The translations under genes and the position numbers were made by a program. This document shows, piece after piece, positions 937 through 21,233 of a stretch of 21,233 nt of DNA; position 1 is the stretch's first letter, and every line of letters starts with the position of its first letter. The stretch comes from a virus. The notes beneath the pieces are model-generated. The model searched no databases. It saw nothing but the letters and a program-made list of their open reading frames with translations, and was not told the DNA's origin. Location of the stretch: the IMG/VR virus record IMGVR_UViG_3300002053_000551, positions 1 through 21,233 of that record; one strand, written 5' to 3'.

Positions 937-1311
937 ATGGAAGAGCCATACGGGAAGGAACTGATTCTCGATCTGAGCAGTTGTAATGTCGAGACTTTCA
1001 CCAGAGAGTCTATAGGCAACTACTTCGACAAACTTTGTGAACTCATTGATATGCAGGCCGAGGATCGGTATTTTTGGGATGATGAAGGCTTGCCCTCGGA
1101 GGAATGTCAGACCAATCCCAAAACCTGCGGCATTAGTGCGGTTCAGTTTATCCTCACTAGTACCATCGTAATTCATTCGCTTACCAAGCTCGGCAAAGTA
1201 TATATCAATATTTTCTCATGTAAGGATTTTAACGTAGACGATGTCTGCGAGTTTACTGTTAAGTGGTTTGGCGCTGGTAAGCACAGCTACGTTGCCATAG
1301 CGAGGGAATAG
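937..1311 (+). CDS. S-adenosylmethionine decarboxylase-like protein (SpeD fold, altered cleavage motif)
   Basis: The 124-residue length matches class 1B bacterial AdoMetDC proenzymes, which self-cleave to a pyruvoyl enzyme. The N-terminus GKELILDLSSCNVETF resembles the SpeD opening (GxHLIxxLxGC). Aligned by eye to the SpeD core, S67 matches the catalytic Ser of GVS, S75 the pyruvoyl-forming Ser, H80 the processing His and C95 the catalytic Cys; GK and NIFSC keep the spacing. The usual ESHLxIHTWPE is replaced by TSTIVIHSLTK, so the Glu before the scissile bond is Thr and WPE is lost. It could be a decarboxylase with a different substrate or an inactive homologue. SpeD homologues acting as ornithine or arginine decarboxylases are known. 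SD AGGAGA precedes ATG 937; DUF3326 follows after 2 nt. Confidence 0.7.
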   Translation: MEEPYGKELILDLSSCNVETFTRESIGNYFDKLCELIDMQAEDRYFWDDEGLPSEECQTNPKTCGISAVQFILTSTIVIHSLTKLGKVYINIFSCKDFNVDDVCEFTVKWFGAGKHSYVAIARE

Positions 1312-1313
1312 AT

Positions 1314-2603
1314 ATGCAGGTTATTGAGCGATCAGTAATCTTAAATAGTTTTATGGAATTGGTCGATCTCGGAGAACGCATATATAGTCAATACCAAGAA
1401 GTTGTGATCAGGTTCGTGGTTGAAGATATCTGTGACGGCAAATTTCATTGTAGTGTTAACACAATAAAGGGTCTACCGTTATTTAGATATTCCAATTCTG
1501 CAAAGTTTACTCCTGGATCGAATCTAAGATCAGATGGCAAGTTTATGGTCGCGTTGGTAATTCCTACTGGTTTAGGCGCTTCTGTTGGTGGTCATGCTGG
1601 CGACGGCGGTGCAACTGCAAAATTGATGGCTTCTGTATGTGATACATTGATCACACACCCAAACGTAGTAAATGCATCAGATATCAACGAAATGACAGAC
1701 AATACTATGTATGTTGAGGGTTATTCGTTAACACAATATCTACTGGGTAACATTGGGCTACAAGAAGTTCGACAAAATCGTGTGCTGGTTATAGTTGATG
1801 GTTCTGCTGATCCCATTTATGTTACTGCTGTTATCAATGTCGTCAATGCCGCCCGTGCGACTTATGGGTTAAATTGCCCAGAAGTAGTAATATTGAAAAA
1901 TCCCTTCACTATGAAAACTGGTTGGTCAAATGGGGGTCGGGCTGTTGGTGTCATAGATGGTATGGATGAATTGTTTTCTGTACTTCACGACCGCGAAGGT
2001 ACTTATGATGCTGTGGCAATAACGTCGTTGACACAGATTCCTGCCGAAGACCGTGCCCATTACTACAAGAATGGTGGAGTTAATCCATGGGGTGGTGTGG
2101 AAGCTATGCTGACGCACACCATATCTCATTGTTTCAAAGTGCCGTGCGCACACGCCCCTATGATGGAATCTCAAGAGGTGGAGTTGCTTGACTTTGGTGT
2201 TGTCGATCCACGAAGTGCAGCAGAGTCCGTTTCTATTACGTATCTTCCTTGTGTTCTCAAGGGGCTCAATAGAGCACCACGGATTATCGAAGATAGTCCT
2301 GACGTATCTTGTTTGGTAATTCCGAGACGGTGTCTTGGCATTCCCCATTTTGCCGCTTATCAGAGGGATATTCCAATCATTGCTGTCGATGATTTTATGG
2401 AAATTGATAATGTAAATTGTAATGATTATGTTGATGCTATGGTTGTTGGGAATTACCTTGAAGCGACTGGCGCTGTTATTGCATTACGAGAGGGTATTAG
2501 TCTTGAGACGTTGCGCCGACCAATATCGAAAGTAAAGGTGTCTAGTTATGATGAACTTCGAAACGTGTCCCCGGTGCTCGCAAATTCACAAGCTTCCGCC
2601 TGA
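1314..2603 (+). CDS. DUF3326 family protein
   Basis: The 429-residue protein matches the pattern I know for DUF3326, described mainly in cyanobacteria and plastid-bearing organisms with no established function. Landmarks in order: IPTGLGASVGGHAGD (about 83-97), THPNVVN (114-120), YVEGYSLTQ (133-141), RQNR (153-156), GGVNPWGGVEAMLTH (254-268), PCAHAPMM (277-284) and LPCVLKGLNRAP (311-322). The Gly-rich, Asp- and His-containing motifs suggest a ligand- or metal-binding enzyme, but that is inference. The first 70 residues look like an extra N-terminal domain. ATG 1314 follows the AdoMetDC-like stop by 2 nt with GAGGGA upstream, so the two are almost certainly co-translated. It is by far the largest gene in this run and is more AT-rich than the first genes of the window. 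Confidence 0.75.
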   Translation: MQVIERSVILNSFMELVDLGERIYSQYQEVVIRFVVEDICDGKFHCSVNTIKGLPLFRYSNSAKFTPGSNLRSDGKFMVALVIPTGLGASVGGHAGDGGATAKLMASVCDTLITHPNVVNASDINEMTDNTMYVEGYSLTQYLLGNIGLQEVRQNRVLVIVDGSADPIYVTAVINVVNAARATYGLNCPEVVILKNPFTMKTGWSNGGRAVGVIDGMDELFSVLHDREGTYDAVAITSLTQIPAEDRAHYYKNGGVNPWGGVEAMLTHTISHCFKVPCAHAPMMESQEVELLDFGVVDPRSAAESVSITYLPCVLKGLNRAPRIIEDSPDVSCLVIPRRCLGIPHFAAYQRDIPIIAVDDFMEIDNVNCNDYVDAMVVGNYLEATGAVIALREGISLETLRRPISKVKVSSYDELRNVSPVLANSQASA

Positions 2604-4928: not shown

Positions 4929-5249
4929 ATGAGTATATCTGTTAAACCACATCATCCATTACAGGAATTATTGGCCCAATTACTTTTTAATATAGAAAGT
5001 GTTCCACCACGTGAACAAAAGCGAATGGTAAATTTCGCCTGCAAAAAAGCTGCCGAATGGCATGATAAAAAAATGGATCAAATGTCTGATTTAGCAGCTA
5101 GGCGTATTACATGTTTTGTTTGGAATTATTCTATGTTAGAACCAAATGAAACTATTAATGGTATGGATTGTTATAAATATGCCGAAAATATTCAGCGTAT
5201 AATCGATGGTATTGGTCCGTCGTGGGTTTTGAAAGATATTCCCGAATAA
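4929..5249 (+). CDS. Hypothetical protein, 106 aa
   Basis: ATG 4929 lies behind GGAGATAGTAA, 3 nt after the previous stop. The protein looks all-helical and soluble (HPLQELLAQLLFNIESV; REQKRMVNFACKKAAEWHD; YAENIQRIIDGIG). It is AT-rich. No catalytic or metal motif is evident and no family is recognised. Confidence 0.65.
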   Translation: MSISVKPHHPLQELLAQLLFNIESVPPREQKRMVNFACKKAAEWHDKKMDQMSDLAARRITCFVWNYSMLEPNETINGMDCYKYAENIQRIIDGIGPSWVLKDIPE

Positions 5250-5268
5250 CGGGGAAAATGAGGTTCTG

Positions 5269-5472
5269 ATGAAGATTGGTGATTTGGTTAAGATTATAAA
5301 GTGTGAGCAGTGCCCAGCAGTAGTTGGAAAGATTGTTTCAGTGTCGAAGCTCAATATGGAAGGTGAGCAGGTTGTGTCGGTGGAATTGAACTTTGGTCGT
5401 GGTAGACCACAACTGAATCGTCCTACTAAATTCTCTGTGGACGAAGTAGAATCAATACGAGCTTTCTTCTGA
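5269..5472 (+). CDS. Small beta-barrel-like protein, 67 aa
   Basis: ATG 5269 has GAGG 6-7 nt upstream. The sequence MKIGDLVKIIKCEQCP...VVGKIVSVSKL...VSVELNFGRG reads like a small SH3/KOW-type barrel, in which a Gly-Asp/Glu-x-Val start and alternating hydrophobics are typical; CEQC could bind zinc. Function is unknown. This fold guess rests on pattern alone. TGA 5470-5472 is followed by the only sizeable gap in this run. Confidence 0.6.
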   Translation: MKIGDLVKIIKCEQCPAVVGKIVSVSKLNMEGEQVVSVELNFGRGRPQLNRPTKFSVDEVESIRAFF

Positions 5473-5619
5473 CCATTTCGAATTGGTTTAGCAGGAATAG
5501 AACCTGCACCATTAAGAGCATATTCTATAGAATCCAAAGCTTTAGCTGCGCTGGTCTTTATGACTGCGATATGGAGGCCATCATCAGGTGTTCTAGCGCT
5601 GTAGCCGAAGAGGAATGGA
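5473..5619 (+). other. Gene-free stretch with a tRNA T-arm-like hairpin
   Basis: No forward gene with an SD is seen between the neighbouring genes. Bases 5484-5511 can pair TGGT/ACCA and GCAGG/CCTGC around a 7-nt loop with a TTA bulge; on the minus strand this resembles a tRNA T-arm (stem GCAGG, loop TTCTATT). The matching acceptor, D and anticodon arms could not be built, so it is not called a tRNA. The minus strand is open across the gap and reads in a coding-like way (for example ARTPDDGLHIAVIKTSAAK), but it has no clear start, and its only stop lies deep in antisense sequence. It may be a decayed remnant. Confidence 0.3.
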
Positions 5620-17303: not shown

Positions 17304-17836
17304 TTTTGCCTAATTATACTGTAATTCGTGACACTAGAGAACAAAAAGATTATGGGTGGATTTTTAGTGCGCATGTACCAGATCGGAGACCCCCGAGATG
17401 CGAGGGGACGATTGTGGATACGGTAGAGACTGGCGATTACAGCTTGGTTGGATATACCGACATTCTGGCTATTGAGCGTAAATTCGCTTTTTCAGAATTG
17501 TGGGGCAACTACAGTGCCAAGAGACGACCGCAATTCGAAGAAGAGATGGAGCGGATGTCCAACATTAAGCACGCTTACGTCATAATCGAATCATCTATGA
17601 CACCAGACATCCTTGAATTGTCACCACCACAATTCTCCAAGGGTGTACCGGGCAAGTCGCTGGTCAGATGGTTGATGTATCTGTCAGTTAAGTATGGGGT
17701 GAACATCATACCGGCAGGACAGTGTGGTCGCAAGATGGCTCAGATGATTTTCGAAGAGGTAGTTAGGGTAGAGAAAGATCGTTGGGTTTACCAGGAACCA
17801 AAGAAGAAGTTAGGAGAGGATTGCCTTGGGTGCTAA
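17291..17836 (+). CDS. ERCC4-type (XPF-like) nuclease
   Basis: The 181-residue protein matches the ERCC4 nuclease core: VIRDTREQ (D14, E17), VETGDYSL (D49) and AIERKFAFSEL (E62, R63, K64), equivalent to the GDxxxxxERKxxxD region. R78 and E85 lie in the helix after it. It lacks a helicase or (HhH)2 domain, as is usual for phage versions. Such nucleases cut branched or flap DNA and may act in recombination or in resolving DNA before packaging. ATG 17291 overlaps the dehydratase stop by 13 nt, and the TerL start overlaps its end by 11 nt. Confidence 0.85.
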   Translation: MPRLILPNYTVIRDTREQKDYGWIFSAHVPDRRPPRCEGTIVDTVETGDYSLVGYTDILAIERKFAFSELWGNYSAKRRPQFEEEMERMSNIKHAYVIIESSMTPDILELSPPQFSKGVPGKSLVRWLMYLSVKYGVNIIPAGQCGRKMAQMIFEEVVRVEKDRWVYQEPKKKLGEDCLGC

Positions 17837-19529
17837 AGTCACATTAGATGATCTGCTTCATGGAGATCAGGGAAGATACGGATACCTGTTTCCATATCGT
17901 GATCGTGTACCCAATGTGCGCAAACACATTTTTACCGATCTGAAGCAATCCAAAGACCCGCTTGACCAAGTTGTTGTAAGTCGGATGCTCGATATCAATT
18001 ACATAGGCTGGACAGCAAAGGTTGTTCTGGGTCTCGATTTATTTCCCATTCAGATAGCTACCCTACAGATGATGTGGAATACTCCATTCCCGATGCTGAT
18101 TGCGTGCCGTGGTGGTAGTAAATGTGTACGTGGGGACACACTTTGTAGAACGTCAGATGGTTTGATACGAATGGATGAAATTGTTGATCCACAATCTCCA
18201 GAAATGGAGCGGATTAGTGTTGATTGTGAAATGCATGGTGAAAATGGGTTAAATAAACCATCCTATGGATGGAATAATGGACACTCTAAGACGAAAGTTA
18301 TTAAATTGCGGTCTGGGATAGAAATAGAAGTCACTGATAATCATCCTATCAGATGTGTTAATGAGGAAGGCAAGATAATATGGCGAAATGCTGAAGAAAT
18401 TAGTCCAGGAGATTATATTCCTATCTGTAGGGATCAATATGATTTTGGGAACGATCCAACTACGTCTGAGGATTTGGGTTGGTGGCTTGGGGTCATGACA
18501 GGCGATGGGATGTTTACCCAGCGATCTTGTTTGCGCTTATCATCCACTAACCAATCTGTTGTAGATGAATTTATTCGAATTACGCAAAAAGAATTTGGTT
18601 ACGAACCTAGGCCGCTTCTTAGACCAGGTCATTATAATATTTATAATGTTAAAATTTGGGATAATATCGATAATTTATATAATATTGGTGGTAAAGATTC
18701 ATATACAAAAGAAGTTCCTAGATTAATAAGACAGAGTCCTCGCAAAGTAGTATCTGCTTTTATTAAGGGGCTGTTCGACGCAGATGGTTGTGTTTCAGAA
18801 AACCGCTCTAGAATATCTTACACTTCGTGTTCTGAATTATTAGCTAGGCAGGTTCAGCAAATTCTATTAGGTTTTGGGATAGTTTGTACATGCAGAGAAA
18901 GATACACAAAGTCTCAGAATGGGACAGAAGTAAAATCATACCAGTTAGTGATAGATGGCGAATATAATGTTGCTTTATATGCAAAATATATTGGATTTGT
19001 TCATAGTCGAAAATATAGTAGACTGCAAAATCGTATAATAAAATTTACTAACCCGAATAATGATTTGATTCCTAATATTCAATCAGTAATGGTCAGGTTG
19101 CGAGAAAAGTTTGTGCGAGATACTGGTGGACCGAACAAACGTGGTTACGGCCATAAAAATACATTTGTTTCATCACCATGTAGAATTTTGCAATATGTCC
19201 CATCCTACAATAAATTAGAAAAATTTCTTGATGTTACACAATGCATATGTGATGATGAAGATTGGCGATTTCTTAAGAAAATTTACGATAAACACTATTA
19301 TTACGATTATGTTGAGAGTGTTGGGAGTTCCTGTTGTCAAACATTCGATGTCTACATACCGGATGACCATTCTTTTATCTCCAATGGATTGATTTCTCAT
19401 AACAGTTTCATGCTGGCGGTTTATGCTGTACTCAGAGCCCTGCTAGACCCTGGAACTAAGATTGTGATTGTCGGTGCTGGCTTGAGACAAGCCCGCTTGG
19501 TGTTCAACTATTCGTGGATTCAGAGCTAA
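17826..19529 (+). CDS. Terminase large subunit, N-terminal part, with intein 1; frame lost near 19512
   Basis: TTG 17826 follows AGGAGAGG. TerL residues 1-99 lead to LFPIQIATLQMMWNT, a Q-motif-like adenine contact, and LIACRGGSK, the start of the Walker A loop. Intein 1 follows, and TerL resumes at S19404 as SFMLAVYAVLRALL, restoring GGSKS. It reads VIVGAGLRQARLVFNY and is then lost: SWIQS and TAA (19527-19529). The next recognisable TerL sequence, RGFRANVVIADEFA, begins in another frame at 19513. Related terminases have roughly 50 residues between these points, so part of the ATPase is deleted out of frame. TerL is the packaging ATPase-nuclease that drives DNA into the capsid. Confidence 0.85.
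   Translation: MGAKVTLDDLLHGDQGRYGYLFPYRDRVPNVRKHIFTDLKQSKDPLDQVVVSRMLDINYIGWTAKVVLGLDLFPIQIATLQMMWNTPFPMLIACRGGSKCVRGDTLCRTSDGLIRMDEIVDPQSPEMERISVDCEMHGENGLNKPSYGWNNGHSKTKVIKLRSGIEIEVTDNHPIRCVNEEGKIIWRNAEEISPGDYIPICRDQYDFGNDPTTSEDLGWWLGVMTGDGMFTQRSCLRLSSTNQSVVDEFIRITQKEFGYEPRPLLRPGHYNIYNVKIWDNIDNLYNIGGKDSYTKEVPRLIRQSPRKVVSAFIKGLFDADGCVSENRSRISYTSCSELLARQVQQILLGFGIVCTCRERYTKSQNGTEVKSYQLVIDGEYNVALYAKYIGFVHSRKYSRLQNRIIKFTNPNNDLIPNIQSVMVRLREKFVRDTGGPNKRGYGHKNTFVSSPCRILQYVPSYNKLEKFLDVTQCICDDEDWRFLKKIYDKHYYYDYVESVGSSCCQTFDVYIPDDHSFISNGLISHNSFMLAVYAVLRALLDPGTKIVIVGAGLRQARLVFNYSWIQS
18123..19403 (+). mobile_element. Intein 1 with LAGLIDADG endonuclease, in the Walker A loop
   Basis: The element is 427 codons long. 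It begins with the splicing Cys (CVRGDTLCRTSDGL, block A), has block B EIEVTDNHPIRC with the TxxH histidine, and ends DVYIPDDHSFISNG...ISHN (blocks F/G) with penultimate His and terminal Asn. The following extein residue is Ser. All class 1 splicing residues are present. The central endonuclease has both dodecapeptides, LGWWLGVMTGDG and FIKGLFDADG. The Asp/Glu-like ends (D of GDG and DADG) are kept, so it may be active. It is AT-rich against TerL. Insertion is exactly between Lys and Ser of GGSKS, the ATP phosphate loop, where loss is very costly. Confidence 0.92.
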
Positions 19530-21233
19530 TGTAGTCATTGCGGATGAGTTTGCCTGTTTGGATAAAGATACTTTAGTAGAGACACAGAACGGTCTTGAGA
19601 GGATATCTGATATTACAGACATTAATACAAAGGTACTCAATAGATATGGAGAACTAGAATCTATTGGTTCTTTGATAAAAACACCGAAAACTGATGTGTA
19701 TGAAGTCGTTACGAAATATGGGTATAGATTTAAGTGTTCAAATAAACACAAGGTACTTACTCAGAATGGGTGGAAACTTGGCAAGGATTTAACGATAGAT
19801 GATTTTATTATTACAGAGAACAAATATACTTTCCCGACTGAATCGTATGATGATTTTATTACTAAAGATATGGCCTGGTTAATTGGCCTATTGATATCAG
19901 AAGGTGATGTTACGAATGAACATTGTGTTTCTATAAGAACTACAGATACCAGTCTTGTTGAGCGAATCAAAGATAGGTTTGATCATCTAAACCCAAAAGT
20001 ATATATCAGAGAGCCGTATACAGATGGACGTGGATGGGACTGTAAGAAATCGTATGAAATTAAAATACATAATACGGAATTTAGGAAAAAATTATTCGAT
20101 TTAGGAATAGGTTATTCCAATGTATATGAAAAGCGGATACCTAATTCTATTCTGAGATCACCGGTAGATATATCGACGGCATTTTTAAGCGGTCTGTTTT
20201 ACGGCGATGGATCGTGTTTTTTGTGGAAAGATAGGTCTACGACCAAGCTTGGTGTTGCATATTATACAGTTTCTGATATTTTGGCACAGGATGTACAAAC
20301 ACTACTTTTGAAATTCGATATCATAATTGGTCGTAGGACTAGAAAAAGTCAACTGAGTCACAGAAAACAATGGATATTGCGCGCAAATGGTATACATGCG
20401 CATAGATTATCTGAATTGTTAGAAATTGATGATTGGAAAGAATTGGCAGATGTAGCACACACACATTCTAATAAAGATACATATGGAGTTACATTTGACA
20501 AAAGTCGCAATCAATGGAAAGCTGCTGTTTTATATTGTGGAAAAGTTCGATATCTAGGTAGATATGACACTAAAGATGAAGCAGTTTCTGCTGTAAAAGA
20601 ATTTTTGGATAACAATAATACATGCCTGAAGGTAGAATCTGTTAGAAAGCTTGATTATCAGGATCATTTATATGATTTTCATTTGCCAAATACCCATAGT
20701 TTCTATGGTAATGGTTTTGTACAGCATAATTCTATCCCAGAAGATGTATTCGACGTTGTTGTCCGTGGTTTTGCAGCTACCGCCAAGACTCCTGTCGAAG
20801 AGGCCAAGAGGGCTGCCTTCGAAAAACAGTTGGCAAAACTTGATCTGCCAGCAGATATCAAGAAAAAGATCACCACAGATAATGGCAGGATGCATGGTAA
20901 CCAAATAGTTTATTCTGGTACCGCATATTATGCTTTTAACCATTTTGCAAAGAAGTATGAGATGTGGAGAAAGATTATCAGAAGTAAGGGTGATCCAGAT
21001 CAGGTAGCACAGATTTTTGGTGGAGAGAATTTGGTCCCAGAGGGATTCGATTATAGAGACTACGCGATCATCAGAATTCCTCACACACATCTGCCAGAGG
21101 GTTTATTGGATCAACGGCAGTTGGCTCATGCGAAAGCAACCCTGCCACGCAACATCTATCTCATGGAGTATGGTGCCGTTTTTGTTAAGGATTCAGACGG
21201 TTTCTACCCACGTAGTTTGATCGAAGGATGTAC
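19513..21233 (+). CDS. Terminase large subunit, remainder, with intein 2 (runs off window)
   Basis: The frame is open from CGT 19513 to the right edge. TerL reads RGFRANVVIADEFA, with Walker B VVIADEF (catalytic Glu). Intein 2 interrupts it, then SIPEDVFDVVVRGFAATAKT and VEEAKRAAFEKQLAKL follow, motif III VYSGTAYYAFNHF, and PHTHLPEGLLDQRQLAHAK toward the nuclease domain, which begins beyond the visible end. It has no start codon of its own and would need the upstream part. The composition and motifs match the first TerL part, so both are one gene split by the lesion at 19512/19513. Confidence 0.85.
19555..20730 (+). mobile_element. Intein 2 with LAGLIDADG endonuclease and AP2-like domain, just after Walker B
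   Basis: The element is 392 codons. It starts with Cys (CLDKDTLVETQNGLERISDI), has a block-B-like FKCSNKHKVLT with His, and ends LYDFHLPNTHSFYGNGFVQHN. Extein Ser follows in SIPEDVF, so the class 1 Cys/His-Asn/Ser residues are in place. The endonuclease dodecapeptides are AWLIGLLISEGD and AFLSGLFYGDGS. Between the second dodecapeptide and the C-terminal splicing block lies YGVTFDKSRNQWKAAV...GKVRYLGRYDTKDEAV, an AP2-like DNA-binding domain. Insertion follows DEFA of TerL Walker B. It differs in sequence from intein 1 and is also AT-rich. Confidence 0.9.
20482..20610 (+). other. AP2-like DNA-binding domain inside intein 2
   Basis: The segment encodes about 43 residues with the AP2 pattern YGVxxxxxxxxWxAxxxxxGKxxxLGxYxTxxEAxxA: YGVTFDKSRNQWKAAVLY, then CGKVRYLGRYDTKDEAVSAV and a closing helix. 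AP2 folds bind DNA through a three-stranded sheet and are found in plant regulators and phage HNH homing endonucleases. Within a LAGLIDADG intein it probably extends the recognition site. Its boundaries are estimated by eye. Confidence 0.75.

Follow-up and report, generated by a model that had tools for sequence, protein, structure and literature searches.

A virus-encoded SpeD-like protein with a predicted Thr-Ser cleavage site forms a conserved gene pair with DUF3326

Even among true S-adenosylmethionine decarboxylases (AdoMetDC, SpeD), the residue preceding the scissile Ser varies, since the class 1a enzyme of E. coli cleaves at Lys-Ser. Published genes for SpeDC, the ornithine-decarboxylating homologues of SpeD, are found in clusters with speD/speE, casdh/casdc, or hss. 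SpeDC enzymes are recognized by diagnostic Gln, Thr, Phe, and Tyr residues, and bona fide AdoMetDCs are distinguished by one fully conserved Pro (Li et al., PMC10407285). The SpeD of Sinorhizobium phage phiN3 is a proven AdoMetDC that restores spermidine (PMC9992855). Here, a SpeD-like gene is described from a 21,233-base IMG/VR virus record, which was analyzed in full and is referred to as the window (Table 1). This gene is not a lone phage oddity; together with a DUF3326 gene, it makes up a conserved unit of two genes.

Table 1. Features of the SpeD-like locus in the window
Feature	Position	Strand	Basis
SpeD-like (AdoMetDC-fold) protein, 124 aa	937..1311	+	Pfam/PHROG profiles, AlphaFold fold, 99-member alignment
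Predicted scissile bond Thr74-Ser75	1156-1161	+	Alignment to AdoMetDC family
DUF3326 protein, 429 aa, partner gene	1314..2603	+	Pfam PF11805, E 3.3e-88

The SpeD-like gene, whose ATG is preceded by the ribosome-binding-like element AGGAGA, encodes a protein of the class 1b AdoMetDC (SpeD) fold, as confirmed by both profiles and the predicted structure. Pfam AdoMet_dc matches with an E value of 9.4e-13 (48.9 bits, cut-off 25) and PHROG 3125, "S-adenosylmethionine decarboxylase", with an E value of 1.2e-11. The AlphaFold model has a pLDDT of 96.4, its closest solved structures are those of T. maritima AdoMetDC (Foldseek TM 0.79), and VIA-align superposes it on 1tmi with a Z score of 16.2 and an rmsd of 1.7 Å over 110 residues. 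Residues Ser67, Ser75, His80, and Cys95 correspond to Ser55, Ser63, His68, and Cys83 of the T. maritima enzyme, with identical intervals of 8, 5, and 15 residues; the superposition at 1.7 Å on the S63A variant of the T. maritima enzyme, combined with this spacing, was used as a stand-in for three-dimensional distances in the model. With a significant AdoMet_dc profile, the fold, and S75/H80/C95 at the conserved spacing, the protein belongs to the AdoMetDC-fold superfamily. A phmmer search of the PDB with the single sequence returned only antibody chains at E values of 0.2 or worse, which are chance matches, whereas the family profile retrieved AdoMetDC among the solved structures. Thr74 precedes Ser75, and residues 80-84 read HSLTK rather than HTWPE. 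The initial annotation was therefore accurate in its coordinates, in the four catalytic residues, and in both substitutions, and the AdoMetDC fold, which it proposed to check by overlay on the Thermotoga enzyme and by profile searches, is found.

Viral relatives found with the SpeD-like sequence alone numbered 25, and a family-alignment search gave 70 viral loci and 80 genome loci. The family-search patterns contained the TS segment and so favor Thr-Ser members; the first search, with patterns outside this segment, gave Thr-Ser members too. In an alignment of 99 viral and cellular relatives, Thr74, Ser75, and His80 never vary, 98 members retain Cys95, and 97 retain Gln70. At position 81, 96 of the 99 have Thr, Ala, or Ser and one has Phe; position 82 is Leu in 95, and the segment at the HTWPE site is mostly HTLD. 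Because these positions are invariant or nearly so, Thr-Ser together with HTLD/HSLT constitutes the signature of a subfamily spanning viruses, bacteria, and archaea, and the rewritten site is not private to this phage. When the window is compared with its two nearest relatives, both the SpeD-like and the DUF3326 genes show a large excess of synonymous over nonsynonymous change, so both genes are under purifying selection.

The same alignment bears on the proposal, made in the initial annotation, of a pseudoenzyme acting on host SpeD. A catalytically dead protein that binds and regulates host SpeD, like the trypanosome prozyme, would agree with the loss of the substrate-side HTWPE motif, but the self-processing residues are all kept in essentially all relatives, and this idea, which is highly improbable, was dropped on that conservation and fits poorly with the excess of synonymous change. 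Furthermore, among 19 cellular genomes that carry the gene, no SpeD of another type was detected in 11, although most of these are MAGs of uncertain completeness.

To place the protein among the described branches, the AdoMetDC-distinguishing Pro was identified with the one in HTWPE, an equation of our own; the whole segment, including this Pro, is gone from the window protein. The SpeDC diagnostic positions are likewise our own placement, made from residue order and from the alignment of fitting homologues, one of them encoded between canonical speD (speD1) and speE and 29 more from genomes sampled within a single phylum. Almost all of these 29 share the pattern YSMVQLI[E/S]TSLISGHFA...YLDIFSC, which supplies the Gln, the Thr before Ser, the Phe after His, and the Tyr. 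On these inferred positions, the window protein has three of the four SpeDC residues (Gln70, Thr74, and Tyr89) and Ser81 in place of Phe. Thr before the scissile Ser thus also occurs in homologues with all four diagnostic residues, and a Thr-Ser bond should be cleavable, because SpeDC enzymes have published activity and their Thr is placed at this position. In the tree, which includes no biochemically characterized SpeDC, phage-type and SpeDC-type sequences are joined with support of 96/95, and canonical SpeD is separate (100/99). A single phage-type clade is not rejected (p-AU 0.52), and the phage-type and SpeDC-type sequences may each form their own clade. The comparison first suggested, with SpeD homologues whose substrate changed to ornithine or arginine, was the appropriate one. 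The expectation of altered chemistry divides: a change of substrate is probable from signature and branch, and altered pyruvoyl formation is not supported, since SpeDC-type homologues share Thr-Ser.

The phiN3 SpeD, a nearby long-branch homologue, falls just outside in the tree, and because it is a proven AdoMetDC, the substrate is not readable from the branch alone. It restores spermidine although it lacks HTWPE, and it is 30% identical to the window protein, which could therefore be imagined as a true AdoMetDC with a similarly unusual active site. This is rather improbable: phiN3 SpeD keeps an acidic residue before Ser, the window protein scores 22.4 bits with the TIGR03330 equivalog against a cut-off of 75.65, and the window group stands apart from canonical SpeD in the tree. 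Ornithine cannot be assumed as the substrate either, because the window protein and nearly all of its relatives lack the diagnostic Phe.

The DUF3326 gene, a partner overlooked in the initial annotation, begins two nucleotides past the SpeD-like stop codon. The same arrangement, with DUF3326 directly downstream, is observed in 71 of the 74 cellular loci whose sequence extends far enough, including one (L029) that appears viral. Among 54 non-redundant viral loci, counted without the window and two reference phages, DUF3326 is adjacent in 32 and nearby in 7 more (about 39 in total), and about 15 are without it. It is also present in all six loci from later genome searches with the SpeD query, some of which sit in genomes already known for the pair. 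Choice of loci does not account for the pairing, because they were chosen by SpeD similarity and not by DUF3326. No common third gene was found in the viral loci checked, except for genes within small groups of related viruses. By sequence, DUF3326 has no relative in the PDB. Its AlphaFold model (pLDDT 89.5) has predicted Rossmann-like domains, and Foldseek returned nothing under an E value of 0.001. Resemblance to lumazine synthase-like or GT-B-like domains was considered but not adopted; VIA-align Z scores of about 8-9 are, as the tool warns, commonly reached, and no fold family is therefore claimed.

This partnership also weighs on the view that the protein is no more than a SpeDC, supplying the infected cell with putrescine by pyruvoyl-dependent decarboxylation of ornithine, with DUF3326 as bystander or helper. 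Three of four diagnostic residues and the tree position fit such an enzyme, and phage SpeDC enzymes have already been shown for other phages. It is nevertheless unlikely, given the replacement of Phe81 by Thr, Ala, or Ser in 96 of the 99 relatives, the absence of DUF3326 beside any SpeDC-type locus as against its near-constant presence in the present group, and the different neighbors of published SpeDC genes. Separately, Microcystis phage MaAM05 (L028) carries an operon that combines speE and speB with genes for two distinct SpeD homologues and resembles a nearly complete pathway to spermidine.

The directly supported features, namely the fold, the catalytic residues, the family signature, the branch, the purifying selection, and the conserved pairing, are best accommodated by a self-processing pyruvoyl-dependent decarboxylase of class 1b fold, on the SpeDC side of the family, that probably uses a substrate other than AdoMet and works as one unit with DUF3326. 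The SpeD-like protein would cleave itself between Thr74 and Ser75, and Ser75, aided by His80, Ser67, and Cys95, would become the pyruvoyl cofactor. The enzyme would then decarboxylate an amino acid or amino-acid-like compound, and DUF3326 would cooperate with it, probably by acting on the amine product or by providing the substrate.

The cellular neighborhoods of the pair vary considerably. PtuA-like genes lie beside it in 17 of 80 cellular loci and PtuB-like genes (Septu) in 19 of 80, nearly always immediately upstream and in the same orientation; these counts come without a background rate. A glutathionylspermidine-synthetase-like (GSP_synth) ligase is found at 22 of the 80, mostly with DUF1190 and DUF350, and cyclase-TPR or HD-domain genes take the equivalent place at further loci. 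Many cellular loci have no defense gene adjoining the pair. The pair is spread over bacteria, archaea, and viruses, occurs in 1 of 294 and 4 of 289 genomes of two sampled groups (starting genomes counted), and is present twice in one genome; from its neighborhoods, such a rare and patchy pair resembles mobile accessory systems. In two loci (L033 and L035), an HD-domain protein and then a second protein directly precede SpeD-DUF3326, and the second protein of L033 matches a CxxCxxCC zinc/iron-chelating domain.

These surroundings raise the possibility that the pair is an accessory cassette of defense or conflict operons, providing an amine-based signal, modifier, or antidote alongside Septu and other effectors, and that phages carry it to resist or exclude rivals. 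This idea concerns the role of the pair and is compatible with the non-AdoMet decarboxylase reading preferred above. It is tentative: the Septu-like and other effector-like neighbors and the patchy distribution speak for it, but the link to defense is one of neighborhood, neither the window nor the viral loci contain a homologue of the PtuA, PtuB, or GSP_synth of the relatives, and defense genes are lacking at many cellular loci. PADLOC models do not match either window protein, and without PtuA ATPase and PtuB HNH genes the window is not a Septu system. With similar caution, SpeD(Thr-Ser)-DUF3326 might constitute an undescribed mobile pathway of two genes for an amine-derived molecule used in anti-phage conflict together with Septu, GSP-synthetase-like ligases, or HD/cyclase proteins, which phage copies would counter or exploit.

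Known cases of SpeD homologues that switch substrate are thereby extended by a branch that has a constant partner gene, and DUF3326, a family of unknown function that is also present in cyanobacteria, gains a functional lead from its conserved pairing with a decarboxylase. If the connection with Septu and other conflict genes is real, a pyruvoyl enzyme and a small amine would be tied to anti-phage defense, a tie made nowhere in the accessible literature. Literature on DUF3326, on Septu with SpeD or decarboxylase, and on AdoMetDC with anti-phage functions was covered mostly outside subscription journals; within it, no report of the pair was found, and no polyamine or defense paper retrieved names DUF3326.

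Other features of the window and of related loci were also observed. The terminase large subunit (17826-21233) appears to carry two inteins, the first near the Walker A motif, with LAGLIDADG and intein-splicing matches, and the second after a DEFA segment; between the two, at about 19.5 kb, the frame is interrupted. On the minus strand at about 5136-5538, a short remnant matches an SbcC-like ATPase gene of a related viral stretch, with 80-83% conservation at the DNA level over about 85 bases, and the window ORF looks incomplete. A stretch of a Candidatus Heimdallarchaeota MAG (L225, G001:C1:78000-92000) contains genes related to those of the window virus, including the SpeD-DUF3326 pair (80% and 74% identity), an HNH protein, a DUF4406 protein, and others, and could represent an Asgard-associated virus or a binning error.

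Among described systems, SpeDC (Li et al., PMC10407285, PMC9992855) shares with the window protein the AdoMetDC fold, the Gln and Thr-Ser around the cleavage site, a Tyr ahead of the NIFSC/DIFSC segment, the same side of the tree, and an occurrence in phages, bacteria, and archaea. The main differences are that the diagnostic Phe is Ser/Thr in the window group and that this group has DUF3326 as its neighbor in place of speE or genes for carboxyspermidine or homospermidine. Class 1b AdoMetDCs such as T. maritima TM0655 (1vr7, 1tlu, and 1tmi) have the same fold and Ser/His/Cys catalytic set, whereas the window protein lacks both the Glu before Ser and HTWPE and falls far under the TIGR03330 cut-off. 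The phiN3 SpeD, the best annotated phage match, is likewise without HTWPE and has the Gln and an FSCKDFD segment, but it has Asp before Ser, is a true AdoMetDC (PMC9992855), and has no DUF3326 within the neighboring 3 kb. Septu is connected by the PtuA/PtuB-like genes that adjoin many cellular copies of the pair, yet PADLOC's Septu has no SpeD-like or DUF3326 component, and PtuA/PtuB are missing from the window. Finally, the DUF350-DUF1190-GSP_synth operons with SpeD, as noted in PMC11237479 (citing Li et al. 2019), similarly place a SpeD-family gene beside DUF350 and GSP-synthetase-like ligases; in the loci described here, this gene encodes a Thr-Ser-type SpeD and has DUF3326 after it.
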